This document shows positions 42,794 through 53,890 of a stretch of DNA of 64,000 nt, in pieces. Position 1 is the first letter of the stretch; every line of letters starts with the position of its first letter. Source of the DNA: Gluconobacter cerevisiae (lineage in GTDB: Bacteria > Pseudomonadota > Alphaproteobacteria > Acetobacterales > Acetobacteraceae). The translations under genes were made by a program, and so were the position numbers. The notes beneath the pieces are model-generated. The model saw only the letters and a program-made list of their open reading frames with translations. It ran no database searches and was not told where the DNA came from. The DNA lies in NCBI RefSeq assembly GCF_015244675.1, contig NZ_JABCQO010000001.1, positions 434,001 to 498,000 on the forward strand, in the 5' to 3' direction.

Positions 42794-44308
42794 TCAGGCG
42801 GCTTCAGCCGCGAGGTGCGTCTGGTAAAGCGCAACAAACTGCCGCAGCATATCCGTAATTTCGGCCACCGGCGTCTCCCAGTCTCCTGAGCAGGGCTGAC
42901 GGAAGATTTGCATACTGGGATACCACGGCGTCGTGGAACCGGTTTCCCCCCAGCGCCAGCAGGCATCGCTCCGCGAGAGCATCCAGACAGGCCGGCCAAG
43001 CCCGCCAGCCAGATGCACCATGGACGTATCAACACTGATCAGCAGATCCACGCCATAGAGCCCGGCCGCTGTATCCGCGAAATCCACAATACCGTTCGTC
43101 GCATCGATCACAGGCAAGCCGGTCTCGGCAATCTGGTTTTTCGCGGCCCCAAGCTGGAAACTGACGAACCGGACCCCCTGCATGTCCATCATGGGCGCGA
43201 GTTTCTCCAGAGGGACACTCCGACGCCGGTCCACCTGTGTGGCGACGGGATCATGAGACCGGGGGTCGCCGTTCCAGACCAGGCCGACAATCAGTTCAGG
43301 CTGCTCAGGGGTCCGCACCACACCCTGTCGCAACGCACCACCAACGCGCTCCTGTTCTTCAACAGGTACGGACAGATACGGACATTCAGGAGCCGTGTCC
43401 GGTGTCAGACCCAGACGCATCGGCAGGCCGACAAGCGGGCAATGCAGATCCAGAGGCAATGATGGATCAAGTGCCGAAACGACGCGGTCAATGCCTTCCA
43501 TCCGTTCCAGAAGTCTGACGAGCGTGGGCGGAACCTGCACCACGGTCGTCGCCCCAAGCGCCTTGAGCAGTGGCACAAAACGGATGAACTGAAGCGTATC
43601 GCCATAGCCCTGTTCATGGTGGATCAGGATGGTTTTGCCCGTCAGGTCCTCCCCCTCCCATTGCGGGATGGAAAGATCCGTGCGCGGCGTCTGGCAGCAC
43701 CGCCAGCGCCATTCATATTCCCGCCATCCAGCCTCGAAATTTCCGATTTTCAGAAGACTGACGGCCCGTCCGAAGCGACAGACGCCGTTTTCCGGCGCCA
43801 GAGCAATGGCGCGGTCATAGTAGGGAAGCGACTCTTCGCTTCGGCCAAGGCACTGGAGCGCATGAGCAATATTATTGATGGCCGGAACATGATCCGGGCA
43901 AAGGGAATCGCCGGTTATGGCGTTCTCCAGAGCCTCATCGAACGCGCCTTTGCGGGCCTGAACCAGACTCAGATCGACGTAATAAGGCGCTTCGGATGGT
44001 TTTTGCTGAATGGCGACCTTCAGCGCCCGCTCTGCCCCGTCCAGATCCCCTCCTTCCAGACAGACAATCCCTAGCCGATGCCAGATCCTCGGGGCATTGA
44101 TATCCAGATTCAGGCTCTGAAGATAAAAATGGCGCGCCTGTTGCCAGTCTTTGAGGCGTTCGTACAGACATCCGGCCAGAAATGCAGAATGAGGGTCCTG
44201 AGGGAGGGTCTGGACACCATCATTCAGCTTTTCAAAGGCAGCGGGAGCATCGCCTGCATCTGCCAGAGCGAGAATATCCTGTGCCAGCAAACGGAAAGAA
44301 TTGGGCAT
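42794..44308 (-). CDS. TPR protein with GT9-like C-terminal domain
   Basis: 504 residues. Five or six tetratricopeptide repeats fill residues about 10-200 (for example APRIWHRLGIVCLEGGDLDGAERAL and AINNIAHALQCLGRSEESLPYYDRAIAL). After WEGEDLTGKTILIHHEQGYGDTLQFIRFVPLL begins a heptosyltransferase/ADP-binding-like domain ending with LLISVDTSMVHLAGGLGRPVWMLS. Such TPR-GT9 proteins are common in Alphaproteobacteria and are linked to protein or surface glycosylation. No partner gene is adjacent. The acceptor is unknown. Confidence 0.8.
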   Translation of the reverse strand: MPNSFRLLAQDILALADAGDAPAAFEKLNDGVQTLPQDPHSAFLAGCLYERLKDWQQARHFYLQSLNLDINAPRIWHRLGIVCLEGGDLDGAERALKVAIQQKPSEAPYYVDLSLVQARKGAFDEALENAITGDSLCPDHVPAINNIAHALQCLGRSEESLPYYDRAIALAPENGVCRFGRAVSLLKIGNFEAGWREYEWRWRCCQTPRTDLSIPQWEGEDLTGKTILIHHEQGYGDTLQFIRFVPLLKALGATTVVQVPPTLVRLLERMEGIDRVVSALDPSLPLDLHCPLVGLPMRLGLTPDTAPECPYLSVPVEEQERVGGALRQGVVRTPEQPELIVGLVWNGDPRSHDPVATQVDRRRSVPLEKLAPMMDMQGVRFVSFQLGAAKNQIAETGLPVIDATNGIVDFADTAAGLYGVDLLISVDTSMVHLAGGLGRPVWMLSRSDACWRWGETGSTTPWYPSMQIFRQPCSGDWETPVAEITDMLRQFVALYQTHLAAEAA

Positions 44309-48077: not shown

Positions 48078-48627
48078 TGTTGTCTCTCTTCCTTGCGAAC
48101 GCAGTCTTGCCGTTCCTTGCGGGAAAGAATACCGGCTTGAAGAGCGCCGTCAAAGGCAGTTGTTAAAGATCAGATCTGCAACACCAATGAAATTGCATCT
48201 GAAAAGATCTAATAACTGCTGATTTCAGACCGGTCGGGCAAGCAGGACCTTCTTCGCTATCAAAAAATCAGACAACTTCATTCTATCCCCGTCGTCCAGA
48301 CGCAGAAACGTGAAAACACGAACAATTCCCCAGAGACGCAAAGGATTTTAAGGGGCCTCTATTACCGTCTGATAAAATCAAATTTCAAGACTCAGAAATT
48401 GACTAAGGCAGTTGGCCCACAGCACTGTATTCATACCCTCTTTGATACAGCGGCTCAGACCCCAAGCCTTACAGTAAACCGGGACAATGAATGATGGGTT
48501 GGAAGTTTGATTTTCAGCACCCTGACCGCGCGGCTCAACAAAACTACCACTCCGCACACGGCGCCCTTGAACGGCACTCAAAGAGTGTTGTAGCGTGCCA
48601 CATAAAATGCAATACAGGTAAAAAATA
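48078..48627. other. AT-rich intergenic region, no gene recognised
   Basis: About 550 bp between the response regulator start and the next gene. Base composition shifts from GC-rich to AT-rich near 48150. Both strands are broken by stops; the longest frame (48378-48581, minus) has no resemblance I can name. Several GATC/AGATCT stretches lie at 48168-48210. I see no tRNA, inverted terminal repeat or complete element. The shift suggests the edge of acquired DNA. Confidence 0.5.
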
Positions 48628-50325
48628 ATGTCTGAATTAGATTATAGAATAGACAGTTTCAACTTTTCCAATCATGATTTTTCCAAAATTAAAATCGATG
48701 GATGGTTCTTAAATCATCAAAAAGAAATAAAAAGCATTTTTCTCCATATTGGCGACATAGACTATCCCCTTGATTCTTACGGACTTTACAGTCCAGATGT
48801 CCTTGGAATTCTTGGTGACAGAGCTCGCAACTGTCGTTTCATGCAGTTCATAACTCTTCCCGAAAATACTTTTTTTGAAGACATCGCTGCATCATTTTTT
48901 ATCGTAAATTACATCGATAATACTTTTGAAATTGTCCGTTTTAATGATCTAGACCATCAGAAGTGGGTGATCCCGAAATGCAAAAATTTTTCTGACCTTA
49001 GGATTCACATGGCTGTTCGGGCGTGGGACCGAGCAACTCTGCGTAAGCATCTACAGGAACTGGAAAAATTTACCGGCATCGCCAAACCAGGCGTTGTCAT
49101 TGGATATTCTGATGACCCAAGACTATATCGGGTAGCTCATGAACATGGGTGGGATTATGTTTCTGCACATAACAAAACAGATCTTCCATTCGAGACACTT
49201 GCTTCCTTCTACCTGAGGACAGTCTTAGGGAGTGATGTTCTGCTCCTGATTTCCGATATCCGCCCATCGCATCAGGACTGGGATAATCGCTGGGTATTTG
49301 GGGTCCTCAATTTTGGTGCTGTTGCTTATTTTCCACCCGAGCAAATCCAGAAACCTCTTCGAGGTGAGGGTAGCTGGAACAATCCTTTCCAGACCTCCGA
49401 TCTAAACAAAACCAATCTGGCAGCGTTTACAGCATCTGATATCGAATTATTTGGTCTCCCTGGTCTGCGCTCACTTTCATCCGCAACAGAGACAGAGACT
49501 TCACAAACCGTGTACGCTCTGGATACTGAGGTTATTCCCGTTACACACACGGATGAAAAACAGATCAGCTTCATGACACCGTTCGCAAATAGTGTCTCTT
49601 TATCATCAAAACAAACTGAATGCCTGAAGAGTATCTTATTAGATGCGCACCCTCTTTCTTCACGACACGACCCCAAAAATAGACTGATAAATGATCAGAA
49701 ATTATTCTCACGATTTACAAGTCTTGGTGACAATTGCGAGTTTGGATTAATTCAACGCGAAGTTGGCTTAGAGCCTCTTGATCTGTTTCGATTTGGGGGA
49801 ATACGGGATATTCAAAACCTCATACAAGCATTTGACGAAGATCTGAGTGCTTTCGGAACAGCAAGCGATACTGAAATTTACGAAGCCTACGGCGAGTGGA
49901 TTTCTACAAGCAATCGTTACGGCGTAACATTCCACACTCATCGTTACGCTCATGATTCATCTCGCGAAGATATGCGTACAAGTGAGCAAAAAAAACTGCG
50001 GTATCTTGCCAGAAAAACTTTAGAGGATCTGGAAGAAGGAACCAAAATCCTCGTTCGAAAATCTAACGACGTTATTACGGATGATGAAGCCCGTGCTCTC
50101 TATCGAGCCGTCAGACGACATGGAAACTGCCCGATCCTCATAGTGACGCAAGCATCTGGCAAAGCGGATCTTAATACAGTGGAAGATTGGGGAGATGGAT
50201 TACTAAGGGGTTATATTTCACATTTCGCGCCTTATTCCGAAGCATATTCAGGATCAGTAGAAGAATGGAGGGACCTCTGCGGAGCCGCCCTTGATCTTTT
50301 AACTCCGCAAACGGGAATGAATTGA
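48628..50325 (+). CDS. Unrecognised 565-residue protein in AT-rich DNA
   Basis: No signal peptide or membrane helix. Residues 1 to about 110 form a beta-rich segment (KIDGWFLNHQKEIKSIFLHI), about 115-260 an alpha/beta segment, and a Ser/Thr-rich linker runs from about 290 to 330. The C-terminal part (from about 355) begins FTSLGDNCEFGLIQREVG...LDLFRFGG. This 'SLG.NCEFG..QR' motif recalls DUF1796-type putative cysteine-peptidase-like domains found beside glycosyltransferases in Alphaproteobacteria; Cys and a later His (FHTHRYAH) could be catalytic. Codons are far richer in A/T than in the neighbours, a sign of transfer. The stop lies 1 bp before the FkbH-like ATG, so the two are coupled. Confidence 0.7.
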   Translation: MSELDYRIDSFNFSNHDFSKIKIDGWFLNHQKEIKSIFLHIGDIDYPLDSYGLYSPDVLGILGDRARNCRFMQFITLPENTFFEDIAASFFIVNYIDNTFEIVRFNDLDHQKWVIPKCKNFSDLRIHMAVRAWDRATLRKHLQELEKFTGIAKPGVVIGYSDDPRLYRVAHEHGWDYVSAHNKTDLPFETLASFYLRTVLGSDVLLLISDIRPSHQDWDNRWVFGVLNFGAVAYFPPEQIQKPLRGEGSWNNPFQTSDLNKTNLAAFTASDIELFGLPGLRSLSSATETETSQTVYALDTEVIPVTHTDEKQISFMTPFANSVSLSSKQTECLKSILLDAHPLSSRHDPKNRLINDQKLFSRFTSLGDNCEFGLIQREVGLEPLDLFRFGGIRDIQNLIQAFDEDLSAFGTASDTEIYEAYGEWISTSNRYGVTFHTHRYAHDSSREDMRTSEQKKLRYLARKTLEDLEEGTKILVRKSNDVITDDEARALYRAVRRHGNCPILIVTQASGKADLNTVEDWGDGLLRGYISHFAPYSEAYSGSVEEWRDLCGAALDLLTPQTGMN

Positions 50326-50326
50326 C

Positions 50327-52240
50327 ATGTCCACACCTCAGCTCGCCTGGCTTCCAGACCCGACTGTCGCAACGAAGGGTCATCTTTGGGATCAGCGCCT
50401 CTCGCAGGCAAAAGACGCCGCCCCTGACTGGGATACGCTGCTGGATCTTGCGCGTTATAATCTGAACTTCATGCGGACGATGAAGCTGGACCGCGTTTTA
50501 ACGCGCCAGTTCCCGGAACCTCCTGCCCATCTCTCCGTCAAACCCGTTCGTCTTGCGCTTCTCGGCTCTTCCACAATAAATCATTTGATCCCGTCACTTC
50601 GGGTTGCGGCTCTGAGGCATGGTATCTGGCTCACTGTGCATACAGGGGAGTATGGGAGCTATCGGCAGGAGCTCGGGCAGGATGATGACGCTCTTAAGGC
50701 GTTCGCACCCACACTCATTCTTCTGCTTCTGGATGCGCGACACATAGCGGGTTTTCTGCCACGCAATGCCGACCAGGCCGCAGCCGATACAGCATGTCAG
50801 GAAGTTGTTGAGAGGCTGCTTCCAGAATGTTGGCGTGAAGCAAAAAGCCGTTATGGCTGCCCTGTTCTTCAGACGTCTTTTCTCCCTGTCTTCCCGCGCC
50901 TTATGGGAAGCGCAGAAGCTCTTCTTCCGTCCTCATCAGCCAATTTCATAACGCGGATCAATGCACTTCTGGCCGCAAGCTGTCACAAGCACGGCGCAAT
51001 CTTTGTCGATCTGGCCGCTGAGGCAACACGATACGGCCTTGAGGCATGGTATGATCCATCACTCTGGTGGCGTGCCAAACAGGAAATTGCCCCGAGTGCA
51101 GCTCCTGCTTTTGGCGAACTCGTGGGCCGCAGTCTGGCCGCACTGGCTGGCCGTTCATCGAAATGTCTTGTGCTTGATCTCGATAATACTCTTTGGGGAG
51201 GTGTTATCGGGGATGATGGTCTGGATGGTATCGAGCTTGGGCAGGGAAGCCCTTTAGGCGAAGCTTTTGTTGCTTTGCAGGAATTCGCGCTGCGCCTGAG
51301 CCGCAGGGGCGTCGTTCTGGCCGTCTGTTCTAAAAACGATGAGGCGAATGCTCGTTTGCCTTTTCAAAAACATCCAGAAATGATCCTGCGCGAAAAAGAT
51401 ATTGGATGTTTCGTCGCCAACTGGAACGACAAGGCAGAAAATATTCGCGAAATTGCTTCCCGCCTCAGTATCGGCCTCGATTCCATAGTGTTTGTGGATG
51501 ACAATCCATTTGAACGCTCCCGGGTGCGGGAAGCCTTGCCGATGGTCAATGTTCCAGAAATACCAGAAGATCCCACTCTTGTTCCCGATGCGGTCGCAGC
51601 AGCCGGATATTTTGACCTCATTGAATTAAGCGCTGAAGATCTCAATCGAAGCGATCAGTATCAGGCCAATCTGCAACGACAGTCCCTACAAGAAAGCGCT
51701 ACGGATCTTGGCAGCTATTTGAACGGGTTAGACATGACCCTGATTTATGGCGCGTTCAACTCGACCAATCTTTCGAGAATTACACAGCTTATCAACAAGA
51801 GTAATCAGTTTAACCTGACAACACGCCGTTACAGTCAGGACGATCTGACAGCGCTGATGGCTGATGACACGGCTTTTGGTCTGTGGTTCCGTTTGACCGA
51901 CCGCTTCGGAGATAATGGTCTGATTGCGGTTGTCATAGGACGGGACGCTGCCGAAGGAATTGTGGATATTGATACATGGCTTATGAGCTGCAGGGTTCTG
52001 GGCCGTGGTGTAGAAGAAGCAACGCTCAGTGTTATTGCGGCTCAGGCTCGTGCAAGAGGAGCAATAGCGCTTCGAGGAACGTACCTGCCCACGCTCAAGA
52101 ATAGCATGGTAGCAGACATGTATTCCCGGCTTGGCTTTACATTACTGGAAGACAGGGGAATAGAAGGAAAGTCATACATCCTTCCTTTAACGGAATGGAT
52201 GCCCGCAACAACCTCTATTACCTTAAGTTCGGAGTTTTAA
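50327..52240 (+). CDS. FkbH-like HAD-IIIC phosphatase/acyltransferase
   Basis: 637 residues in three parts: an SGNH-like N-terminal domain (ALLGSSTINHLIPSLRVAA; about 65-270), a HAD-IIIC domain with CLVLDLDNTLWGGVIGDDG (about 280-298) and FVDDNPFERSRVREALP, and a GNAT-like C-terminal domain (about 450-620). In polyketide pathways FkbH takes 1,3-bisphosphoglycerate, dephosphorylates it and loads a glyceryl group onto an acyl carrier protein. A carrier protein gene overlaps only 2 bp downstream, matching that chemistry. No polyketide synthase is present, so the glyceryl or acyl group probably goes to another acceptor such as a surface glycan. Confidence 0.82.
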   Translation: MSTPQLAWLPDPTVATKGHLWDQRLSQAKDAAPDWDTLLDLARYNLNFMRTMKLDRVLTRQFPEPPAHLSVKPVRLALLGSSTINHLIPSLRVAALRHGIWLTVHTGEYGSYRQELGQDDDALKAFAPTLILLLLDARHIAGFLPRNADQAAADTACQEVVERLLPECWREAKSRYGCPVLQTSFLPVFPRLMGSAEALLPSSSANFITRINALLAASCHKHGAIFVDLAAEATRYGLEAWYDPSLWWRAKQEIAPSAAPAFGELVGRSLAALAGRSSKCLVLDLDNTLWGGVIGDDGLDGIELGQGSPLGEAFVALQEFALRLSRRGVVLAVCSKNDEANARLPFQKHPEMILREKDIGCFVANWNDKAENIREIASRLSIGLDSIVFVDDNPFERSRVREALPMVNVPEIPEDPTLVPDAVAAAGYFDLIELSAEDLNRSDQYQANLQRQSLQESATDLGSYLNGLDMTLIYGAFNSTNLSRITQLINKSNQFNLTTRRYSQDDLTALMADDTAFGLWFRLTDRFGDNGLIAVVIGRDAAEGIVDIDTWLMSCRVLGRGVEEATLSVIAAQARARGAIALRGTYLPTLKNSMVADMYSRLGFTLLEDRGIEGKSYILPLTEWMPATTSITLSSEF

Positions 52241-52242
52241 AA

Positions 52243-52485
52243 ATGAACCGTAACGACGTTGTTGAACAGATTACGAAGATCTTTCAAGATGTTTTCGACG
52301 ACCCCAATCTTACTCTGAAGGATGACACAACTGCTCAGGATGTTCCGGGGTGGGACTCTGTTGCCATGATCAATATCATTGTAGCTATCGAAGAGCACTT
52401 CAACATCCGTTTGAAAACGCGGGAAATTGACGGTCTGAAATCAGTTGGCGATCTCTACGAAACCGTTCTCGCCAAAGTATCCTGA
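52243..52485 (+). CDS. Stand-alone acyl carrier protein
   Basis: 80 residues from ATG at 52243, two bases after the FkbH-like stop. Ser39 in PGWDSVAMINIIVAIEEHF is the 4'-phosphopantetheine site, with the typical acidic helix II. The end KTREIDGLKSVGDLYETV follows the ACP pattern. It is a specialised carrier, not the fatty-acid AcpP, as helix II lacks the usual DSLDTVEL form. It is expected to receive the glyceryl (or other) unit from the FkbH-like protein. A strong hairpin ends the operon. Confidence 0.88.
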   Translation: MNRNDVVEQITKIFQDVFDDPNLTLKDDTTAQDVPGWDSVAMINIIVAIEEHFNIRLKTREIDGLKSVGDLYETVLAKVS

Positions 52486-52532
52486 GAAGCGGATTCCAGC
52501 CTGTCTGGATTTCGTAAGTAACGACGAGACAG

Positions 52533-52565
52533 CAGAAGAACCATTCATGGTTAATGGTTCTTCTG
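52533..52565 (+). terminator. Perfect hairpin after the carrier protein gene
   Basis: Thirteen-bp arms (CAGAAGAACCATT and its complement) surround a 7-nt loop, 48 bp after the stop. The T-run is missing, so it may act with Rho or as an mRNA end stabiliser. A smaller hairpin (TCCAG/CTGGA) lies at about 52496-52510. Confidence 0.6.
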
Positions 52566-52633
52566 GATGAATCTCCGATAAGACTAATTTGCAGACAAAC
52601 CGGCTTCTGCCCTGCTTCCTGAAGGTTTACAGC

Positions 52634-53890
52634 TTAGTCATCCGCATCCTGCGGACGCGGACCAATATGGATGGGCAGCGTCAGAGAGTGTTTGCCGCGC
52701 TGGATCTGAAAGCTCAGGACCACGCCGGGACGCGCCGCCGCAATACTGCGCAGAAGCATCCGGGCGCTGGTGACGGGCACATTGTCCACCTGCGTCACGA
52801 TATCGCCACGCCGTAGACCGCCCTTCTGGGCCGGGCCACCGTTATCCACACCGGCAATGCCAATCGCTGCATCCCCGTCATCGAGCGTGATGCCGAGCCA
52901 GCCATGTTCGGCATGACCCGTCGCCTCGATTTCCGCGACGATCGGGGCCACGATTTCGGACGGAATGCCGAACCCAATCCCGACCGAGCCTCCTGCAGGC
53001 GTCACGATGGCGGCATTCACGGCCACGACCTGCCCGCGCATATTGAAAGCCGGGCCGCCCGAATTGCCGGGGTTGATTGGGGCATCAAGCTGGATGAAAT
53101 CGTCGAGCGACCCGATGCCCAGATCGCGCCCGACCGCCGAGACAATTCCCGCCGTGACGGACGATCCGAAGCCGAACGGATTGCCCGCGACGAGAATCCA
53201 GTCCCCGATATCGGTCTGCTGGCTGTCACCCCAGGTGACATGCGGAAGCGGCTCGGGGCTGTCGACCTTGATGACGGCGATATCCGTCAGCGGATCGGCC
53301 CCCAGCAGACGCGCTGGCATTTCATGGCCGTTGGACAACGATACCACGACCTTGTCCGCCCCGCCCACGACATGGCGATTGGTCACGATGATCCCGGACG
53401 GATCGACGATGAAGCCCGAACCCGCGCCGACCATTTCTTCCTGCTGGCGCTTCATCCGATCCCGGTAGCGCTTTTCAAGCGGGGTGCCGCGGATCTGAGG
53501 CGGAATATGGTCGTGACCATCGGGGCTGTTCTGGGTAATGGCGATGTTGACCACGGCCGGGATCACCTGCCGCACCAGCGGGGCAAAACTCAGCGGACCA
53601 TATTTAACCAGAAGTGGCGGCAGAGCGGGCGCCGGAGCCGGGACCACGGCGGGCTGTGTGGGGATGCCATGTGCGTCCGTGTTCTCGCCCGCAACGGTGC
53701 GATCGGGAATGATCGTCGGGAGCATTTTCGGCGCGGGAGCCTGCACGACTGCGGGCTTCTGCGGCTGTTCCACGGAATGCGTAACGCTCTGCGGGCTGTT
53801 GCCATGACCGCGCAGGGCCAGCATCAGCCCCACCGTCACCACAGTGGCCGTTCCGGCACCGATCGCAGCAGCCTGCAGGGTGCGGTTCAT
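52634..53890 (-). CDS. Membrane-anchored HtrA/DegS-like serine protease with one PDZ domain
   Basis: 418 residues. A single N-terminal helix (about 8-27) anchors it, followed by a Pro/Val/Ala-rich linker (about 30-95). The protease domain has His173 (NRHVV), Asp203 (LTDIAV) and Ser277 (INPGNSGGP), and one PDZ domain covers about 320-410. One PDZ plus an anchor is the DegS plan; DegS starts sigma-E release by cutting an anti-sigma factor. Similar anchored HtrA proteins also do general quality control, so the regulatory role is not certain. No sigma-E gene is nearby. Confidence 0.88.
   Translation of the reverse strand: MNRTLQAAAIGAGTATVVTVGLMLALRGHGNSPQSVTHSVEQPQKPAVVQAPAPKMLPTIIPDRTVAGENTDAHGIPTQPAVVPAPAPALPPLLVKYGPLSFAPLVRQVIPAVVNIAITQNSPDGHDHIPPQIRGTPLEKRYRDRMKRQQEEMVGAGSGFIVDPSGIIVTNRHVVGGADKVVVSLSNGHEMPARLLGADPLTDIAVIKVDSPEPLPHVTWGDSQQTDIGDWILVAGNPFGFGSSVTAGIVSAVGRDLGIGSLDDFIQLDAPINPGNSGGPAFNMRGQVVAVNAAIVTPAGGSVGIGFGIPSEIVAPIVAEIEATGHAEHGWLGITLDDGDAAIGIAGVDNGGPAQKGGLRRGDIVTQVDNVPVTSARMLLRSIAAARPGVVLSFQIQRGKHSLTLPIHIGPRPQDADD

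Follow-up and report, generated by a model that had tools for sequence, protein, structure and literature searches.

Proteins of the FkbH family make, together with an acyl carrier protein (ACP), a glyceryl-type thioester. The closest described form is presumably the FkbH/glyceryl-ACP module of polyketide gene clusters, represented by OzmB and BryA. A second point of reference is the flagellin of Campylobacter: its glycan bears a glyceric-acid derivative (PMC3068675), and a gene with an fkbH domain, cj1302, is reported from what is apparently the same flagellar gene region (PMC7099621). This common placement is deduced from the close gene numbers, and those parts of the papers state no role of cj1302 in making the glyceryl unit. 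Here, we describe a related locus of Gluconobacter cerevisiae (assembly GCF_015244675.1) in a stretch of 64,000 nucleotides, referred to as the window (positions 434,001 to 498,000 of contig NZ_JABCQO010000001.1): three genes at 48628-52485 encode a fusion protein of 565 amino acids (A565), an FkbH-type protein, and an ACP. Like the polyketide module, this trio combines a TIGR01686 protein and a stand-alone ACP, both with the catalytic residues kept; unlike it, the trio resides in a genome without a polyketide synthase marker, and its remaining gene encodes a pseudo-glycosyltransferase fused to a domain with a conserved cysteine and histidine. With the Campylobacter system the trio would share a glyceric-acid derivative on a glycan in combination with an fkbH-domain gene; the kind of modification is thus already known.

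We suggest, with a confidence that falls a little short of even, that the three genes form a mobile unit for the tailoring of a surface glycan: FkbH and ACP would provide a glyceryl-type thioester, and A565 would deliver the acyl group to the glycan. This reading is based on several observations: the trio is kept together, the C-terminal domain of A565 recurs beside FkbH genes, its Cys370 is invariant, and the key residues of FkbH and ACP are intact. Moreover, the glycosyltransferase remnant of A565 is under purifying selection, relatives of the C-terminal domain are fused to tetratricopeptide repeats (TPR) or a sulfotransferase-like domain and have glycan genes as neighbours, and the genome holds no PS-DH domain.

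The three genes are all encoded on the + strand, with spacers of 1 bp and 2 bp. The A565 gene (48628-50325) is an open reading frame; three further Gluconobacter genomes carry full-length homologs of it, with the order of the genes conserved. It is followed by the gene for the FkbH-type HAD/acyltransferase protein (50327-52240, 637 amino acids; TIGR01686, 3.8e-87) and by the ACP gene (52243-52485, 80 amino acids; PF00550, 4.9e-8). A mechanical list of open reading frames lets the latter begin at 52195; the ATG at 52243, which gives the 80 residues and the 2-bp gap, matches the orthologs, and one of the other copies (genome G004) starts with TTG. The GC content and the GC content at third codon positions are 0.43 and 0.37 for the A565 gene, 0.53 and 0.50 for the FkbH gene, and 0.45 and 0.53 for the ACP gene, compared to 0.59-0.68 and 0.64-0.79 for seven other genes of the window. 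An earlier note on this DNA, made from the letters alone, had already described the tight packing, the AT-richness that is strongest in the first gene, the identities of FkbH and carrier protein, and the lack of a polyketide synthase, and all of this is borne out here, the last point as judged by two markers.

The FkbH protein scores 292.5 bits against the NCBIfam model TIGR01686 (cut-off 146.65), and D284, D286, S335, K336, K369, D391, D392 and C555 (in the motif WLMSCRVLGR) are identical in all 41 aligned proteins; we take these to be the catalytic residues of the HAD domain and, in the case of C555, the acyl-carrying cysteine. The ACP reaches 33.5 bits with PF00550 (cut-off 20.8), and W37, D38 and S39, the latter being the phosphopantetheine site in the motif GWDS, are kept in 35 of 35 aligned sequences. 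By analogy to the family, FkbH and ACP of the trio probably make a glyceryl-type thioester, with glyceryl as the presumed group. Such a thioester could also serve as the extender or starter unit of a compact pathway for a small diffusible metabolite, and most of the papers found on FkbH and glyceryl-ACP appear to deal with polyketide clusters. However, the source genome has no PS-DH domain (PF14765; among 14 control genomes, Bacillus subtilis was positive) and three PP-binding domains in all. Judged by these two markers, it offers no polyketide synthase that such a module could feed. Moreover, A565 carries a module derived from a glycosyltransferase, and we regard a diffusible product as very unlikely.

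The proposed transfer activity would be located in the C-terminal half of A565. Residues 341-565 (49648-50322, + strand) form an undescribed domain, the C domain, with the pattern SLGxNCEFGxxQR...E.L.L.RF...H, recognized by conservation, a structural model and fold matches. A565 gave no match above the cut-off with Pfam and NCBIfam (weak matches were Myb at 0.18 and an amidase model at 0.21), and the best match of A565 or the C domain in a sequence search of the PDB, at 0.79, is without meaning. An alignment of 41 sequences shows no variation at G367, C370, E371, R377, R388 and L468, while at least 90% of the sequences share H436. The AlphaFold2 model of the domain is of high confidence (predicted local distance difference test, pLDDT, 93.6) and finds eight matches at E <= 0.001 in BFVD, seven to giant-virus proteins annotated as papain-like cysteine peptidases and one to a giant-virus glycosyltransferase. 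The seven matches and the conserved cysteine and histidine would also fit a cysteine hydrolase, either a peptidase or a thioesterase that cleaves the acyl group off the ACP. The peptidase names of the viral proteins are predictions, however, and neither the fusion to a GT-A remnant nor the polysaccharide-type loci in which the domain occurs suggest proteolysis; a hydrolase is therefore, in our view, unlikely. No papain-type chain is among the 50 best PDB fold matches shown for the domain, a missing match being no proof. The viral proteins are presumably of the DUF1796 type. Their predicted fold resembles that of the C domain, but sequence comparison showed no relation to DUF1796: PF08795 (DUF1796) was not listed for A565 at E-values up to 10, in a scan in which few matches weaker than about 0.1 pass the HMMER filters, and profile comparison of the C domain with three PF08795 members by hhalign was not significant (probability 4.9). 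PF08795 has no match in the source genome; it was found at three places in two of 58 genomes of the class and in none of 150 genomes of the phylum, with 14 negative controls in both searches, and a phage collection searched with a PF08795 protein gave no match.

The company of the C domain in other proteins and loci points to glycans. Among ten scanned C-domain proteins, six have TPR arrays, one has a sulfotransferase-like domain, and three show no other Pfam domain; the N-termini of several further ones, as we read their sequences, look like another beta-sandwich. On plasmids, its neighbours include genes for glycosyltransferases, sulfotransferases and a polysaccharide pyruvyl transferase, and of two further plasmid loci, one combines it with an acyltransferase and a GDSL-type gene, and the other has glycosyltransferases some kilobases away. 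A stand-alone gene for the C domain is also present in the Erwinia phage phiEt88 (L146, 4944-5624), where it adjoins the integrase and is possibly a gene for lysogenic conversion.

The earlier note had regarded the first protein as novel. It is actually a fusion: the undescribed part is the C domain, while residues 1-285 can be aligned with GT2-type proteins from the genus and the family. This N-terminal half consists of a beta-sandwich domain (residues 1-116, 48628-48975, + strand; strands are predicted, and residues 1-100 have a block pLDDT of 78-95) and a degenerate, truncated glycosyltransferase domain of the GT-A fold (residues 117-285, 48976-49482, + strand; recognized by alignment, fold and motifs). 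Eight GT2-type relatives were compared; a stretch that matches the beta-sandwich precedes the catalytic part in six of them (L006, L007, L009, L010, L014 and L015) and is absent from two, and the three relatives that were scanned all match PF00535. The model of the N-terminal half (mean pLDDT 72.6) shows the beta-sandwich followed by an alpha/beta domain. Foldseek finds GT-A enzymes (GlfT2, 2.3e-5), and the top rows of VIA have Z-scores of about 10 with a root-mean-square deviation of 3.1-4.1 A over 130-165 residues. Since nucleotidyltransferases of the same fold class tie with the GT-A enzymes in these lists (KdsB is first in VIA), the assignment is decided by sequence homology. In contrast to its homologs, A565 lacks the C-terminal third, and the DDG-type, EDD and Y-G-[HF]-E-H-V-E-H-T (HEH) motifs, which are kept in all eight relatives, are lost in all four trio proteins. 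By this motif test, which covers the nucleotide-sugar DDG and the metal-binding DXD-type motifs, the domain is derived from a glycosyltransferase and is not an active GT2 enzyme. In spite of this loss, the remnant is kept by purifying selection: its ratio of nonsynonymous to synonymous substitutions (dN/dS) is 0.083 and 0.069 in the comparisons with G. kondonii (genome G017) and G. albidus (G022), respectively, and that of the beta-sandwich is 0.165 and 0.139.

If the C domain acts on the product of FkbH and ACP, the genes should be associated in other genomes. In a sample of 200 genomes of the Acetobacteraceae, FkbH relatives are present in 69 at E <= 1e-20 and in 54 at E <= 1e-50, and the C domain occurs at 142 places in 63 genomes (E <= 1e-6). 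It is found in 41 of the 54 genomes with FkbH at the stricter threshold as compared to 22 of the 146 others (Fisher p 1e-15), and in 43 of 69 versus 20 of 131 at the relaxed one (p 2e-11); these p-values disregard the relatedness of the genomes. Of 83 listed FkbH places, 58 were used, the 25 left out being weaker matches, mostly to the HAD part, or second fragments of a gene. For 19 of these 58, a C domain is present at a distance of at most 2 kb, whereas random placement in genomes of 4 Mb would give about 0.4 within 5 kb. In the nine closest pairs, the C domain precedes FkbH, both are encoded on one strand, and 14-130 bp separate the two matches. A tree of 45 FkbH proteins, which do not cover all 58 places, requires 12 changes of the C-domain label, at least eight of them forced by supported branches; the coupling has thus been gained or lost repeatedly, two alternatives that this tree does not distinguish. 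Two loci with C domains beyond 2 kb (L019 and L071) were labelled as having none.

Several results weigh against the tailoring reading. In the survey, a C domain is lacking from the 2-kb surroundings of 39 of the 58 FkbH places, and for 120 of the 142 C-domain places no FkbH gene of this set is located within 5 kb; thus, the partners do not depend on each other, and the function of the C domain may be broader. Eleven of the 19 close pairs share a strand and eight are on opposite strands, and the C-domain label shows only weak clustering on the FkbH tree (47 of 500 shuffles were as low). The earlier note had expected the first gene to recur in homologous FkbH-ACP loci, and this was the case for the C domain in the 19 loci but not for the complete gene: full-length A565 was found only in four of 26 Gluconobacter genomes and in none of 35 other genomes compared. 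No glycan gene cluster adjoins the trio in the 64-kb window, and the stretch shown around the C-domain gene of phiEt88 contains mostly hypothetical genes, with no glycan gene named. For the C domain itself, the PDB fold search gave no significant match (best Foldseek E-value 0.16, best VIA Z-score 5.8), and the low-Z rows (response regulators, XOAT1) look like a common alpha/beta arrangement. In an alignment of 31 sequences, from 36 matches of which five truncated ones were left out, Cys370 is present in all 31, and His436 is kept in 29 and replaced in two. The Cys370-His436 active site is a candidate drawn solely from such conservation.

The large number of C-domain places far from FkbH would fit the idea that the domain is another transferase or binding module associated with glycans, active for example in glycosyl transfer or acceptor binding, and that the trio is one pathway in which an enzyme encoded elsewhere moves the acyl group. 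The match to the giant-virus glycosyltransferase and the GT-A fold of the N-terminal half agree with this idea, as do the TPR and sulfotransferase fusions that point to a general role with glycans. It would, however, leave unexplained the operon-like adjacency to FkbH in the nine loci, the repeated coupling on the FkbH tree, and the invariance of Cys370 next to the near-invariance of His436. We consider this explanation doubtful, yet it is the most serious competitor.

For the tailoring unit, the following sequence of events can be envisaged. From what is known of the family, FkbH would take a three-carbon acyl phosphate from glycolysis, 1,3-bisphosphoglycerate, and hold the acyl group on the invariant Cys555; the HAD domain would remove the phosphate, and the glyceryl or a closely related group would be loaded onto Ser39 of the ACP. 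The C domain of A565 could then take over the acyl group, probably via Cys370 and His436, and A565 would pass it to a hydroxyl group or an amine of a sugar, with the beta-sandwich and the inactive GT-A domain as a putative scaffold for binding of the acceptor. Finally, the decorated glycan, putatively a lipid-linked polysaccharide, lipopolysaccharide or a flagellin glycan, would be exported. In the earlier note, the first protein had been proposed to be a transferase to a glycan or protein. The GT-A remnant and the conserved Cys/His domain in the vicinity of FkbH-ACP pairs and glycan genes fit transfer to a glycan; the transfer step itself is what we infer. It is tempting to go one step further and to regard the C domain as the founder of a hitherto unknown transferase class, dependent on a cysteine, in which acyl groups are moved from carrier proteins to surface sugars, and A565 as a protein whose glycosyltransferase domain was emptied of catalysis and kept for acceptor recognition, but this extension is tentative.

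The same note had seen in the locus a candidate for an undescribed modification system. In the open-access literature searched, we found no description of the cassette or of the C domain, be it as fusion to a pseudo-glycosyltransferase or as partner of FkbH, and to this extent the claim holds; it does not hold for the product, given the glyceric-acid derivative of Campylobacter. FkbH proteins are common in the family (the 54 of 200 genomes) and mostly accompanied by a carrier protein, yet we are aware of no product that has been attributed to such a pair in this family. The C domain with its invariant cysteine offers a specific candidate for the transfer step that these pairs lack. If this is true, bacteria would possess a new class of acyltransferases to decorate their surface glycans, and a testable function could be given to many unannotated genes, considering the 142 places of the domain.

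The distribution of the trio in the genus suggests how it was acquired. Among 26 Gluconobacter genomes, including the source genome, 24 have an empty site, with the flanking response-regulator and HtrA genes 66-298 bp apart, whereas the source genome has 4.46 kb including the trio between them. The insert spans approximately 48170-52631 (the flanks extend to about 48169 and resume at about 52632; five loci with an empty site served to verify these bounds). In G. kondonii, too, the trio occupies this site. In G. albidus, the site is empty and the trio is located elsewhere, with 82% identity to 48602-52467 of the window. A fourth genome, G004, also has an empty site and carries a more distant trio, in which the A565 homolog has 39% identity; nitrate-reductase-associated, molybdopterin and FdhD genes are located downstream of this trio. 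Since the trio is intact in four of the 26 genomes, in three different neighbourhoods, it moves as a unit, and the three-gene block looks like a mobile cassette brought into this acetic-acid bacterium from elsewhere. At one end of the G. albidus trio (contig C16; L030, 427-951), a fragment of a DDE transposase on the opposite strand (PF13586, 7.4e-10) is a possible carrier of the cassette. About 11 kb away (L030, 16079-17644) are two open reading frames, which we take to resemble flagellar rod proteins; this is probably a coincidence.

A patchy, AT-rich and mobile block with a glycosyltransferase that has lost its motifs might simply be a decaying island, with the pseudo-glycosyltransferase gene about to be lost and no present function for the trio. 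Selection speaks against this: dN/dS versus G. kondonii and G. albidus is 0.10-0.12 for A565, 0.07-0.08 for its glycosyltransferase remnant and 0.04-0.08 for FkbH, rough values because dS is high in places (0.8-1.1 in the remnant) and saturated versus G004, and internal stop codons are absent from all four copies. We regard decay as highly improbable. The A565 gene seems to have a history of its own. As compared to G. kondonii, the FkbH and ACP genes are 87.5-96.5% identical per 200-bp bin, level with the flanks, while 48501-50100, which comprises most of the A565 gene and the upstream 127 bp, is only 61-86% identical, and dS is 0.90 for the A565 gene versus 0.33 for FkbH. Therefore, the A565 gene was either exchanged or has had a past unlike that of its neighbours; the divergence suggests allelic exchange, which would fit a part that sets the specificity for the acceptor.

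Other FkbH loci of the family make use of different partners. A carrier-protein match accompanies FkbH in 37 of 39 further loci (L066-L104). In six loci (L085 and L100-L104), a membrane-bound O-acyltransferase (MBOAT) gene adjoins the FkbH-ACP pair (PF03062 was confirmed in two, the other four were assigned by BLAST cluster), making a partner acyltransferase a recurring theme. These loci resemble the trio in the placement of FkbH and ACP beside a putative acyltransferase; they differ in that the partner is the membrane protein instead of A565, and no C domain was found in the six stretches. A large protein group is represented in nine of the loci L066-L104; its one scanned member is a GT2+GT9 fusion. 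A larger Gluconobacter cluster (genome G018; L019, 2-14161) encodes FkbH, an ACP, a WsaF_C protein, a WbsX-type glycosyltransferase and two AMP-binding enzymes; it also holds a MaoC/SDR fusion and a protein that combines TPR with the C domain.

The earlier note had let the locus end at a perfect hairpin of 13 bp. The hairpin exists (52533-52565, arms 52533-52545 and 52553-52565 around a loop of 7 nt) and lies beyond 48628-52485, and the surrounding stretch 52486-52634 is more stably folded than shuffled sequences (z -2.48). A function as terminator of the cassette is unsupported: no run of T residues comes after the hairpin, it is not among the terminator-like matches of a terminator scan, and the G. 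kondonii copy has an imperfect version only. About 4 kb from the trio, on the - strand (42794-44308), the window encodes a TPR protein with a weak C-terminal match to Glyco_transf_9 (14.5 bits, below the cut-off), another combination of TPR and transferase.

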